Source: a virus. From it: 23,144 nucleotides of DNA. The stretch is from IMG/VR virus record IMGVR_UViG_3300024520_003107, positions 1 through 23,144 of that record; one strand, written 5' to 3'. This document shows, piece after piece, positions 1 through 5,394 of the stretch (the stretch's first letter is position 1; every line of letters begins with the position of its first letter). Both the position numbers and the translations under genes were made by a program. A model generated the notes under the pieces. That model did not search any database, was not told the origin of the DNA, and worked only from the letters and a program-made list of their open reading frames with translations.

Positions 1-3000
1 GGATCGTTTCGTGACGGCAAGGTGCATGGTACCGGGTTGTTCGGCAAATTCGATGAAGTGCCGGGGTTGCGCAAGTTGATCCAGACGCATGATCGCAAGA
101 TGGCGGGGCTTGACCCGGAGACAATGAGGAAGCGATTTCCCATACCCGAAGAGGAGGACACGGTTATTTTCTCTGCGGAGGATATATCGAAAAATCCCGA
201 ACTGGCGAACATGCTGACCTCTGGAACCGTGTTCCGGGTAAACAAGAAGACGGGCGAACCGATTGTCGGTCAATTGATGTCCCCCACCGAAGCGAAGCAA
301 TACAACCAGAAGTTCTCCGATGCGCTCAAGGCAATCATACATCGCAAGGGGGAGGAAAACTTGCCCAAGGGACATTTGAACGTCAAGGAGACAGTAAGTG
401 GGGCGGAACGCTGGGAGGGAACTTTCATATCGGAGGAAATAATCAACGAACTGGCGGAAATCGGCGGATGGAACAAGGAGCAAATTTCCTTACTCAAGGA
501 AGTCTCCAGAATAATGGAGAGGGGAGAGGGTGACGAATATCTCTGGCATTACTTCAAGGCGACCTCCAGAGGTAGCAAGAGAGTTTACACGGGATTTCGT
601 GGGCAATGGAGGGCGGAAGTCCCGTATGCGCTGGAAATCACCAAGGACGGCAACATCAATTTCAGGGTGATGGACGTGGATAGGTTGAACAGGAACATCG
701 AGTGGTTGTTCAAGATGAAGAAATACTCCGATGATCTGACGAAGGCATGGGGGCCGGACAAGGTGGTTGCGAAAGAGCAATTCAAGGAAGACTTGCTGAC
801 CTATGGGCGCCAGCAGGCGGAAGGAATTAGGTACATGGATGGAGACTTGCACCCGGACAAGGAAAATTACCTCCATGCGGTTTTCGGAAAAGGGGGGGCG
901 GAAGGCGTGAGGCGCAACCCCGTTCTGGCGGATTTTCCCAAAGAGGGGGCGAGAATGGCGGTATGGAGTAGTCGCAGACTGGAGCGCATTGGCAAGGTTC
1001 AGCGGATCGGCGGGAAACGCCCGGTGAATTATGAGAGGATTCAGGATATGTACATGCCGCGCGAGGAGCAGACCGTCCCGCTACCCTTCATCGAGGACTT
1101 GGGTGGCGAGGATGCGGCGGCGGGTATGCGCCGAGTGTATACCGACACTATGCGGAAGGGTGAGTACGAGAAGTTTATGAAGGGGATTACGGAGAAGGAG
1201 AAGTGGGATGCAATTGGCAACCAGTCTCAACTGCAACCGTTCATGCCGAGATTTCCCAAGAGGGGAGAAGGCAAGCAGTACATGCCAGCGGAACGGACGC
1301 TCGGACTTAAGGACAACATCACCGAGGACGTATTGCCGTCCATCACGCAGGCGAAACTGTCACCCCAGCAACTCCAGGCGGCGCTTGCCAAGACTGCGGG
1401 GGCGAAGTCATATGCGGATGAGATAGGATTGACGGACTTCGTGAAGGATCGGAAGTCGATCACCAAGGACGAGGTTGAGGCATACGTTCGTGAGAACTCC
1501 CCGAAGTTGGAGGTGGAGGTTTTGGGAGAAGCAACATTTAATAAGGAGCTTAATATTTGGCAACACCAGTTCGACCGTCTACCGAGTGGCGAACCCAAAT
1601 TCTCCGAGTACCAAGAACCGGGCGGGACGAACTATCGGGAAGTGAAGGTGAAGTTGCCGATCAAGGAAGGAGAAGCTACCTTCAACGACCCGCATTTTGG
1701 AGACAACGTATTGCTCCACCTTCGTGTAAATGACCGCATAGATGCAAACGGCAAGAAGGTATATTTCATCGAGGAATTGCAGTCTACTTTGCACCAGAGG
1801 GGGAGGAAGGAAGGTTATGGACACAGGGAATGGAACAAGGGTGACTTGGTTGCCAAACGGACAAAAGTAGGCACTTGGAGTATCACTATCAGAGGAGCAA
1901 GGGTTATTGCGGTTGAGGCAAAGACAAAGAGTGAAGCAATCGACGTTGCATGGAAGAGACTTCAAGAAGGTGAAAGCGAATTGCACCCGATGGATGAAGT
2001 GACTTTCGATGAAGGCAAAGGAGTACCCGATGCTCCCTTCAAGAAGAATTGGCCTGCCCTTGGCTTGAAGTATGCAGTCAAGCAAGCTATCGAGGGAGGA
2101 TATGACCGGGTTGCTTGGTTGGACGGTGAGGGTCAGGCGGCGAGGTACGACTTGAGTAAGAAGATTAGTAAAATTGATTATTCGGAGGGCAAGAGGTTGT
2201 TCGGTGGTGACCTTCAATCTGAACTTCGGGCATATGATCATGACGGCAAATTGGCGATAAAACGGACGGGGGTAACACATGAACAATTACCCGACATCAT
2301 TGGCAAGGAAGCGGCAGAGAAAATGCTGGCTAAAAAACCAGAGGAACTTCCTTGGGGTGACGGAACCGCCAAACACTATACACTTGAAGGCATAGACCTC
2401 AAGGTTGGCGGCGAGGGGATGAAGGCGTTCTATGACCGTGAGATGCGTTCCCTTGCCAGCAAGATTTCCAAGAAGATCAAGGGCGGGAAGGTGGAGAGGG
2501 AGGTACGAAGCGACCTTGGCGGCAAGATGACCCGGCGCCAACAGGAAGCAGGGACAACGGGAGAATTCGGCAGTCATGGATTCGACGTCCCGAAAGACCC
2601 TGCCGCAGTAGACAGTCTCCGGCTATACATGCCTGCGGATCGGGCGCCCACCGATGCTCGACCACCTTCTCTGATGATGGAGAGGGGCGAGAAGGGGCGT
2701 GGGGCGCGTCCTATGGTTGCCGGGAGGGACGAGGGGGCAGTCACCATCACCGAGAAGATGTTCATGCCAGCGGCGCAACGTTCCTACAAGGGGCCGCCCC
2801 CAAAACCACTCCATACCACAAGGAAGCGCCCCGTTAAACCCGGAAGGGGAGATCCGGGGGAAGTGATTGCCGTGGAATTTACTCCGGGGGCCACGCATGG
2901 GGCAATGGCAGGGGTTCGAAAAGGTTCGATGAAGGTTCGACAGGAATGGCATGATCGACACGTCGACGTGCTGATTGATCCAGAGACTTCAGAGTTTCTA

Positions 3001-5394
3001 CCTGCCAGAGAATTGGGACTTGTGTCAAGAACCCGTACCTTCGATTCCGCTTACTGGAATAGTGAAGGGGTACTGGAAACCAATCCCGTCTTGATTGTCG
3101 AATTACTGAACGGGGAACGAGGTGATGCCAGATTGATATCAAACGTCATCGGTATGTATGGATTGCAGGAGGCAGTTGCAGGATACAAGCGCACCTACGG
3201 CAGAACCAAGGCAAATTTGGATGGCGCTTATGTCACGATTGGTGATGGACGTCCAATGACGCACGTGGAACATCGGAAGGTTCAACAGTACGTTGCCGAT
3301 AACTTTTCCAAGGGGTTGGCGGCAGACATGGCAATTTTTCCGCATAAAAATGGATTTGATTGGAAATGGTTGGGATTTAATGAAGAAGGATGGTCGCATA
3401 AAAACGGCAAGGATGCTGTGGGATTTGCATTGGATGATGCAGTCTATAAAGTTACGGGAGAAAAATGGGATTTCGGAGAATTCAAAATAGGAGAAACGTT
3501 ATATGAAGAAAACCATTGGCAAAGGAACCCCAACGGGGAAGCATACCGGGCAAATGCGAAAGACCTCATACAGGGGAAAGGGAGGCACTTTCAGAGTACT
3601 GCAACCCAACGATCCAATCTTCAAGCGAGGATGGATTCTGAGTTCTCACCCGGCATTCGTGGAATCCATAAGGACTTCGAAGGACGGGGGTTCGGGAAAA
3701 GCGGCGCCGAGGGATTAAGGCAAGAACTTCGCCTGCCCACCCCTAGCGAGACAACGGGGAAGAAGGGTCACACGTTCCCCACCATCAAGATTCATCGGCA
3801 ACCATTGCCGGGGGAAACTGCATTTCCTAAAGAATCCCAAAAGTGGTCACCCGAACAATGGAGCGAGTATCTTGAACGCGGGAAGTCCGCAGATGAGATG
3901 CAACGCAATATGCCAGATGCTGGCGCCAACCCGGAGGCATTTTCGCGCATCATGGGCAATCGTTTGGAGGGCATCAAGGAGGTGGAGACTCCATCGTTCC
4001 CGACACGTTTGGGTGAGTGGGTGAGGAATCCCGAAAAACTTTTGGATTTCGTGAAGCGAGGAATCAAGACAGACCCGGAGTTCTTCCATCGGGCAAAGGC
4101 AGGCATCAAGTCCGTAAGAGAGATGCACGAAATCGCTAGACGTGGTGAACTGTCCAACGAGGCAGTTTCCTTGAGTTACTTTTGGGGGTTCCTGTCCCGT
4201 ATGCTTGACCCCTACAATCAAGAGGCAGGTTGGTTGCGCATGATAAACCATCCACAATTCCTCAAGCAGATGTGGAAGAGCATAGACGGTAAGTTCAACC
4301 TGGAACGAGGTACTTACTGGACGGGGCAAAAAGTTGTGGAGGATGGGTTTTTCAAGGGTGACTGGAAACGACTTGCCAAGAAATCCAAGGACAAGGCAAT
4401 TTCCGAGGCGCACAGAAGGAACCTTGCCCAACGGGACACTTGGGTCGGCATGGTATCCAATATAATGAAATTCCAAGACCAAAGAGGCGCGCTTACCGCA
4501 GGAAGAAATGCCATACAGAACATCAATGCCTCACATTCGATGTTCCAGAAGTGGAATGGAAAGTGGGATGAATTGACCTCGATCCTAAATAACCCGGAAC
4601 TAACTGGGCCACAGATGCGTGAAATGATGTGGGAAAAAGGATTTGGCGGCGCAGGAATGCAAGACAAGGTGTCATCCTTCGTCATCGCCACCCTTGCCAG
4701 AGGTGACGTCCTTATTATGGATAGGTGGCAATACGTTAACTTTTGGTTCAATGAATTAGCGGAAAGTGTCAGAGGCAAACGAGTCGAATTGGAAGCGACG
4801 TGGAAAAAGCATTCGATGGATTTCAAGGAAGCGAAAGGGAAGAAAGGTAGCGCCGAAAAAAGAAGAGTTGCCGAGCAAGGCATGAAGGATGCCCGAAAGG
4901 AATTGGAGGAATACAGGGAATGGGGGAATTCACCATTGCGGTTTGATCGAGCAGGCACTCCCGAAGATCGAACCGGGTTTTATGATGCAGTAGGTTCCGA
5001 GGTCAAGGATGCGGCATCCCATGCCCTCTATCGCACTCTGGAAAACTACTTTGACAAACTCTCTGGGGACGTCTCGCAAATTGATCCCGTGTTGGCGGAT
5101 TTCAATGATGCGTTCTCTCTCCATTGGTTGACTTGGAACATGATCAAGCGAGAGGCAGTTGGGCATTCTAGTCTCGACGTCATTACTGAATTTTCCAAAC
5201 TATCTAAATTCCCGAAAACCAAATCAGAACGTGACAAATTCCTACGAGAGTTCATTGAGCAAGAGAAGTACACCGAGAGGGAAGTCCCACTCGGAAAAGT
5301 CCGACCAAGTGTCGCAGGACGCAGGCAACTCCCCAAGAAAACCGAAAGGTTCTCGGCGCAATACGGAAGACCAAGAGTTACTGTCTCGCCTTGA
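1..5394 (+). CDS. Giant phage polyvalent protein, 5'-truncated by the window edge
   Basis: The reading frame is open from base 1, and the first possible start (GTG at 22) has no ribosome-binding site, so the true N-terminus probably lies upstream. Residues below count from that GTG (1790 aa). Residues about 562-825 carry a block typical of phage large polyvalent proteins: N-V-L-L-H, then F-I-E-E-L-Q-S, H-Q-R-G-R-K-E-G-Y, A-P-F-K-K-N-W-P, G-Y-D-R-V-A-W and G-M-K-A-F-Y-D. The C-terminal third (about 1384-1690) is Trp-rich and helical, with D-R-W at 1567-1569; I do not recognise it with confidence. Short [YF]-M-P motifs recur at residues 344, 407, 420, 869 and 914. In related phages such proteins tend to be large late products suspected of entering the cell with the DNA; that role is inferred here. 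A terminator-like hairpin lies downstream. Confidence 0.8.
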   Translation, partial: GSFRDGKVHGTGLFGKFDEVPGLRKLIQTHDRKMAGLDPETMRKRFPIPEEEDTVIFSAEDISKNPELANMLTSGTVFRVNKKTGEPIVGQLMSPTEAKQYNQKFSDALKAIIHRKGEENLPKGHLNVKETVSGAERWEGTFISEEIINELAEIGGWNKEQISLLKEVSRIMERGEGDEYLWHYFKATSRGSKRVYTGFRGQWRAEVPYALEITKDGNINFRVMDVDRLNRNIEWLFKMKKYSDDLTKAWGPDKVVAKEQFKEDLLTYGRQQAEGIRYMDGDLHPDKENYLHAVFGKGGAEGVRRNPVLADFPKEGARMAVWSSRRLERIGKVQRIGGKRPVNYERIQDMYMPREEQTVPLPFIEDLGGEDAAAGMRRVYTDTMRKGEYEKFMKGITEKEKWDAIGNQSQLQPFMPRFPKRGEGKQYMPAERTLGLKDNITEDVLPSITQAKLSPQQLQAALAKTAGAKSYADEIGLTDFVKDRKSITKDEVEAYVRENSPKLEVEVLGEATFNKELNIWQHQFDRLPSGEPKFSEYQEPGGTNYREVKVKLPIKEGEATFNDPHFGDNVLLHLRVNDRIDANGKKVYFIEELQSTLHQRGRKEGYGHREWNKGDLVAKRTKVGTWSITIRGARVIAVEAKTKSEAIDVAWKRLQEGESELHPMDEVTFDEGKGVPDAPFKKNWPALGLKYAVKQAIEGGYDRVAWLDGEGQAARYDLSKKISKIDYSEGKRLFGGDLQSELRAYDHDGKLAIKRTGVTHEQLPDIIGKEAAEKMLAKKPEELPWGDGTAKHYTLEGIDLKVGGEGMKAFYDREMRSLASKISKKIKGGKVEREVRSDLGGKMTRRQQEAGTTGEFGSHGFDVPKDPAAVDSLRLYMPADRAPTDARPPSLMMERGEKGRGARPMVAGRDEGAVTITEKMFMPAAQRSYKGPPPKPLHTTRKRPVKPGRGDPGEVIAVEFTPGATHGAMAGVRKGSMKVRQEWHDRHVDVLIDPETSEFLPARELGLVSRTRTFDSAYWNSEGVLETNPVLIVELLNGERGDARLISNVIGMYGLQEAVAGYKRTYGRTKANLDGAYVTIGDGRPMTHVEHRKVQQYVADNFSKGLAADMAIFPHKNGFDWKWLGFNEEGWSHKNGKDAVGFALDDAVYKVTGEKWDFGEFKIGETLYEENHWQRNPNGEAYRANAKDLIQGKGRHFQSTATQRSNLQARMDSEFSPGIRGIHKDFEGRGFGKSGAEGLRQELRLPTPSETTGKKGHTFPTIKIHRQPLPGETAFPKESQKWSPEQWSEYLERGKSADEMQRNMPDAGANPEAFSRIMGNRLEGIKEVETPSFPTRLGEWVRNPEKLLDFVKRGIKTDPEFFHRAKAGIKSVREMHEIARRGELSNEAVSLSYFWGFLSRMLDPYNQEAGWLRMINHPQFLKQMWKSIDGKFNLERGTYWTGQKVVEDGFFKGDWKRLAKKSKDKAISEAHRRNLAQRDTWVGMVSNIMKFQDQRGALTAGRNAIQNINASHSMFQKWNGKWDELTSILNNPELTGPQMREMMWEKGFGGAGMQDKVSSFVIATLARGDVLIMDRWQYVNFWFNELAESVRGKRVELEATWKKHSMDFKEAKGKKGSAEKRRVAEQGMKDARKELEEYREWGNSPLRFDRAGTPEDRTGFYDAVGSEVKDAASHALYRTLENYFDKLSGDVSQIDPVLADFNDAFSLHWLTWNMIKREAVGHSSLDVITEFSKLSKFPKTKSERDKFLREFIEQEKYTEREVPLGKVRPSVAGRRQLPKKTERFSAQYGRPRVTVSP

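Follow-up and report, generated by a model that had tools for sequence, protein, structure and literature searches.

The DNA analyzed here (the window) is the entire IMG/VR record IMGVR_UViG_3300024520_003107, a genome fragment of 23,144 bases. It begins inside the open reading frame (ORF) of a giant polyvalent protein, and the tripeptide [YF]MP, that is, Tyr or Phe followed by Met and Pro, recurs along the 1797 amino acids that are visible. What is the role of this repeated peptide? Based on sequence comparisons, we found that [YF]MP(A) peptides mark the borders of exchangeable modules in the giant protein. We infer, with a probability of roughly 0.48, that they are junction sites cut by a zincin metalloprotease of the same polypeptide.

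The five motifs in the window protein (Table 1) compare to 0.17 expected from its composition, and none of 20,000 shuffles gave four. Because the motif had been chosen post hoc, we ranked all tri- and tetrapeptides seen at least three times in the protein, with F and Y merged; [YF]MPA and [YF]MP came out on top. [YF]MP was absent from all other + strand ORFs of at least 150 amino acids in the window and in the record of a sister phage, G004. Four of the five sites are conserved in relatives. The exception is FMPRFP at residue 414, where the FMP is probably incidental and not a junction. An earlier note on this DNA had listed the same five motifs at residues 344, 407, 420, 869 and 914. Each of these numbers falls short by 7: the ORF runs off the contig end, and the count was begun at a GTG at position 22. 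Ala directly follows three of the five, as the earlier note had it, and the motifs at 427 and 876 do lie on both sides of the conserved polyvalent domain, flanking a central module (residues 429-832). Its placement of the motifs in low-complexity stretches was borne out in part: residues 330-440 had a predicted local distance difference test (pLDDT) score below 50 in a structure model, with a thin alignment there.

The motif tracks module borders. Homology blocks in the window protein (an N-terminal carrier, residues 1 to about 361; the central module; and a block at 952-1237) start or stop at motifs 351 and 427, and the central module has identical flanking motifs in L250 and L269. We compared eight proteins with repeated [YF]MP by BLAST. 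Of the 50 ends of homology blocks, 39 were within 20 residues of a motif, compared to 9.4 expected (maximum of 19 in 2000 trials of random placement; the ends are not independent). This agrees with the suggestion that the motifs are module junctions, except at site 414, which is not conserved in G004.

We also collected relatives without regard to the motif. Window residues 1-362 were aligned with three relatives and 25 loci were fetched; the query ends with the first motif, and the peptide patterns used in the scan exclude it. From the carrier region onward, 22 of the 25 loci had [YF]MP, with 47 motifs compared to 1.62 expected, counts that are not independent since many loci are close relatives and some are on the same contigs (L230/L062, L231/L077 and L243/L063). 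The three loci without [YF]MP were L240, L242, which is cut off, and L246, which has no clear code. In L240, a close carrier relative, LFIP, LLMP, YLMP and FLMP replace [YF]MP. The motif search in homologues that the earlier note had called for thus found the junction motif present. Forty-nine different contexts (from the carrier loci and the window, G004, L068 and L073) gave the consensus [DNE]-K-[LM]-[FY]-M-P-[AST]. In addition, a DNA scan with K.FMPA.EAG yielded 54 ORFs, 41 of them with at least two [YF]MP. Because the motif was part of the search pattern, and because some additional FMP come after an HExxH helix, these numbers indicate spread and not enrichment. In L222-L226, GFMPQ follows the zincin helix; that is, the junction tripeptide also occurs within the presumed protease domain.

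The sister phage contig, G004, was found by a terminase scan; its terminase is 93% identical to that of the window. [YF]MPA occurs seven times in the 2189-residue giant protein of G004, with motifs before and after ADP-ribosyltransferase (ART) modules. For example, motifs at 1965 and 2152 flank a Pfam ART-PolyVal match at 2006-2143. The window and G004 giant proteins aligned significantly only where they carry motifs (about 287-431 and 898-927 in window residues). This alignment also showed that the window retains the final residues of an ART-like module (DEGAVTITEKMFMPA) and lacks the module body. The bodiless end looks like the scar of a module loss. We noticed that the whole N-terminal half has been exchanged between the two proteins with the junction motif retained: despite the 93% identical terminases, the window's carrier matches L062/L230 and that of G004 (L061) matches L068. 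A DNA scan with KMFMPA returned 33 stretches, among which only the G004 contig had a multi-motif giant protein; most of the others contained a single hit, in an ORF that was small or unrelated. Repeated [YF]MP was absent from the proteins examined from Tunturi_5, vir555, phiGT1, F116, USP_25, DC33 and plasmid p382, and gp69 of Burkholderia phage JC1, a virion-associated DarB-like giant, showed neither an ART match nor a convincing junction repeat.

The earlier note had also stated that giant polyvalent proteins of other phages often repeat a short border motif, and we found that they do. ART-PolyVal modules have a recognizable tail, GN.G.FDP.NPDIR, followed by a variable peptide. We examined 160 ART loci (80 from viral and 80 from genome contigs), of which 129 gave tail-bearing ORFs and 31 gave none. 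Removal of near-duplicates took an earlier set from 128 to 125 proteins and the set for the recurrence test from 126 to 102. In the 102 proteins, the 4-mer after the ART tail recurred within its own protein 61 times, compared to 5.8 expected when tails were permuted between proteins (maximum of 17 in 1000), and 31 proteins had a recurring 4-mer, compared to 5.3 expected. When ART-adjacent places were masked, there were 45 recurrences (5.0 expected). In the earlier set of 125 proteins, 15 of 63 recurrences were at most 45 residues before an ART-like start, compared to 2.05 expected. In a cultured phage, Dolichospermum phage Dfl-JY45, several modules end with [FY][SA]R.

The central module of the window protein also occurs in 22 giant proteins that are not members of the [YF]MP family, and we analyzed the stretch after the module in 20 of these. 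L116 and L118, with matches ending at window residues 716 and 710, were excluded; L090, also ending at 716, was kept. In 8 of the 20, this stretch held the recipient's own ART-tail 3-mer, compared to 1.37 expected (0 of 5000 permutations). The recipient peptides were FAPR in L162, FSPK in L141, FSLN in L209, FQR in L212 and FQP in L066. Because the same module is followed by the recipient's own peptide, the junction peptide appears to go with the protein; that is, it tends to belong to the protein and not to the module.

If the peptide goes with the protein, what reads it? A candidate is encoded in the carrier part of the relatives. HExxH was present upstream of the junction region in all 25 carrier loci except L231 and L239, which start downstream. 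In L230, for example, the carrier-like segment begins at residue 998, after HExxH at 862. Sixteen aligned relatives have invariant H162, E163 and H166 and a distal E243, that is, an HExxH plus a distal Glu. A structure model of this region was modest (mean pLDDT 62, core blocks 71-85).

We found that parts of the junction peptide covary with this putative zincin. We compared pairs among the 102 proteins, scoring zincin segments as similar at 60 bits or more (99 pairs). Zincin-similar pairs shared tail position -1 in 79 of 99 cases (43.3 expected) and tail position +1 in 66 of 99 (28.9 expected), each with 0 of 5000 permutations as high. In contrast, 99 ART-similar pairs were near expectation (45 compared to 41.4 at -1; 34 compared to 30.2 at +1). 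Pairs with similar zincins and dissimilar remaining sequence shared -1 in 34 of 41 and +1 in 22 of 41 cases. Pairs with a similar remainder and dissimilar zincins were nearer the base rate: 109/226 and 66/226, against base rates of 646/1683 and 424/1683. Sharing of the full 3-mer was weak (10 of 168 pairs, equalled in 58 of 2000 permutations). In all twelve proteins of one zincin component (L064, L066, L071, L072, L104, L110, L125, L139, L147, L155, L156 and L189), I-[LV]-x-Q follows the ART modules, and [LM][YFHN]Q outside ART tails was twice as frequent in these twelve as in the others. LFQ and LNQ also precede other modules in the twelve. The covariation gives moderate support for the zincin as the reader of the junctions.

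The zincin in the carrier part would cut each junction of its own polypeptide, and the modules would be released ahead of packaging, within the head or once injected. Zincin clades would differ in the junction code that they read, here K-[LM]-[FY]-M-P-[AST]; protein-specific peptides of other phages at equivalent borders include FAPR, FSPK, FSLN and FQR. It is possible, and we offer this more tentatively, that giant polyvalent proteins in general are self-processing effector arrays in which a protein-specific junction barcode is read by the protein's own zincin, with protease and barcode diversifying together.

Several observations weigh against cleavage by the zincin. Because the window begins immediately after the zincin region, any zincin of its own would lie off the contig, and the final 876 residues of the window protein have no motif despite at least one further module. 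Foldseek with the model of the zincin region gave nothing significant (best E 0.7). A second structural look put lethal factor first (Z 5.3, root mean square deviation 5.5, 138 aligned), with ArdC and PprI lower; the match is weak (Z below 8) and agrees with, without proving, a predicted zincin in the carrier of the relatives. Tail positions 0 and +2 covaried with neither zincin nor ART similarity. When nine members of one zincin clade were removed, +1 lost its signal (p = 0.30) and -1 kept p = 0.008; that is, the covariation rests largely on one clade. The 102 proteins cover just a few zincin clades. HExxH content was rejected as a predictor of junction repeats: it was present in 22 of 33 proteins with repeats compared to 59 of 92 without. 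Four proteins had excess synonymous identity at their motifs (34/51 compared to 16.7 expected in G004, and also L129, L105 and L209). Finally, the virion RNA polymerase of phage N4, which is also giant, injected and equipped with a zincin-like domain, is packaged without processing according to a 2017 survey of polyvalent proteins (PMC5512222).

The peptide could instead be a docking or packaging tag, bound without cutting by a phage-specific partner (scaffold, portal or ejection protein), with the repeats providing several attachment points for loading or ejection. We consider this unlikely. Such a tag fits a peptide that is protein-specific, conserved at the peptide level and repeated at exposed borders, and it fits the finding that HExxH content does not predict junction repeats. 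It leaves unexplained why tail positions follow the zincin, and why the peptide is found on every module side and not in one targeting region. What tips the balance from docking toward cleavage is the behavior of positions -1 and +1: they vary together with the zincin that the protein encodes and show no such link to its ART module.

It also seems improbable that the motifs just mark where modules were shuffled, in which case descent and copying would have preserved a neutral linker, or a DNA seam, that nothing reads. Homology blocks do break at motifs, several different modules share one long connector (KLFMPASEAGAGKGK), and the excess synonymous identity in the four proteins above is as expected from copying. 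DNA seams or recent copies should show agreeing synonymous codons, but matches were at the background rate in the motifs of the window (6 of 14; 4.9 expected), in the carrier family (28 of 92; 34.5 expected) and in most other sets. Pooled over 23 motif sets (L074 entered twice), there were 231 matches compared to 185.9 expected. In some proteins, TCN and AGY serine codons were mixed at one motif position. In addition, one module carries different peptides in different proteins. Because synonymous codons mostly vary freely, the peptide itself seems to be selected. In general, such selection is the better explanation, and some proteins have in addition undergone recent copying.

Internal translation starts, in which the conserved Met would begin separate module proteins, are very unlikely. 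Shine-Dalgarno-like 4-mers preceded 13 of 52 motif ATGs compared to 53 of 371 other in-frame ATGs (odds ratio 2.0, p = 0.064), but Met is replaced by Thr or Ile at equivalent borders (YTP, FIP) and junction peptides of other phages have no Met. Chance recurrence of a tripeptide picked by eye, as might be supposed for a short motif chosen after looking and with one unconserved site (414), is contradicted by the shuffles, by the ranking of k-mers and by the presence of the motif in 22 of 25 loci that were fetched regardless of it, and can be dismissed.

The organization that cleavage would imply resembles that of MARTX toxins, in which effector modules on one polypeptide are reportedly freed by an internal cysteine protease. 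The protein here has a comparable array with a repeated border site, and release by an internal protease would complete the analogy. The likeness is one of logic, not of membership or homology; the protease class differs, and MARTX toxins use a secretion route into eukaryotic cells. Closer to this family, the proteins of the 2017 survey are giant and multidomain, with ART modules, exchangeable domains and a zincin peptidase (here in relatives), and zincin autoproteolysis was proposed there. The survey differs in that neither a repeated junction peptide nor a candidate cleavage site is named in its available text, and "linker" does not occur in its main text (PMC5512222). P1 DdrB is the processed case in the survey (PMC5512222). 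P1 DarA and DdrB are head-packaged anti-restriction proteins that are proteolytically processed, but DarA is cut near its N-terminus by a separate prohead protease, Pro, and the text available for these proteins contains no repeated junction peptide (PMC12810830, PMC5512222). Among titles and abstract openings, in a scope that excluded most subscription journals and bioRxiv, we recognized no paper on a repeated junction peptide in polyvalent proteins.

Phages and plasmids widely use polyvalent proteins to deliver counter-defense enzymes. A short, named border site makes the 2017 autoproteolysis proposal addressable by one mutagenesis experiment. It also provides a means to split uncharacterized giant proteins into modules from sequence alone, and junction codes could lead to a group of proteases, each specific for a different short sequence. 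If junctions do act as barcodes, then modules acquired from other phages must adopt the barcode of the recipient, and the codes of different phages would be orthogonal ([FY]MP[AS], I-L-x-Q, F-A-P-R and others).

Table 1. Motifs and modules of the giant polyvalent protein (window coordinates; residues of the 1797-amino acid frame).
Feature	Position	Strand	Remarks
Giant polyvalent protein ORF	1..5394	+	1797 amino acids visible; 5' end off contig
[YF]MP starts	1051, 1240, 1279, 2626, 2761	+	Residues 351, 414, 427, 876, 921
Carrier segment	1..1050	+	Residues 1-350; homologous to region just downstream of zincin in L062/L230 and others
YMP, putative junction motif	1051..1059	+	Residue 351; YMP in G004; FMP/YMP equivalents in L250, L254, L282, L292
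FMP, not conserved	1240..1248	+	Residue 414, FMPRFP; FQPRFP in sister phage G004
YMPA, putative junction motif	1279..1290	+	Residue 427; equivalents in L250, L269
Central exchangeable module	1285..2496	+	Residues 429-832; partial phrog_7348 match
YMPA, putative junction motif	2626..2637	+	Residue 876; equivalents in L250, L269
ART-module end remnant RDEGAVTITEKM	2725..2760	+	Residues 909-920; same residues close ART-like module in G004
FMPA, putative junction motif	2761..2772	+	Residue 921
Further module	2854..3711	+	Residues 952-1237; common to one unrelated giant protein, L131

The carrier, central module and further block each have separate homologues; that is, the giant ORF is multidomain, with the at least two distinct domains that define a polyvalent protein. 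The GTG at position 22 is unlikely to be its true start because homologous proteins extend about 900-1000 amino acids further upstream. Its module matches a protein of plasmid p382 annotated as LPD23 domain-containing, and phrog_7348. There was no Pfam match above cut-off in the window giant ORF, and NCBIfam had no family for the giant proteins of the window, G004 or Dfl-JY45. When the whole protein of the window ORF was searched against viral contigs, four candidate stretches came up, but no relative was confirmed. Other genes in the window encode a large terminase, a scaffold protein and an SU10-type major capsid protein. In G004 and L235, the giant gene is downstream of ORFs, some matching tail families and others matching nothing. 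The giant polyvalent protein is probably carried in the virion.

Further repeats were noticed in other proteins. The protein of the L074 ORF that starts at 3725 has FIPAD three times in a proline-rich N-terminal stretch (residues 21-62), together with six [YF]MP and an unrelated-looking carrier. In L003 (9248-14529; phage record MW202675), two neighboring large proteins have the glycine-rich repeats RVGFAQGG, RIGYKDGG and YGFNTGG, which are possibly another junction code.
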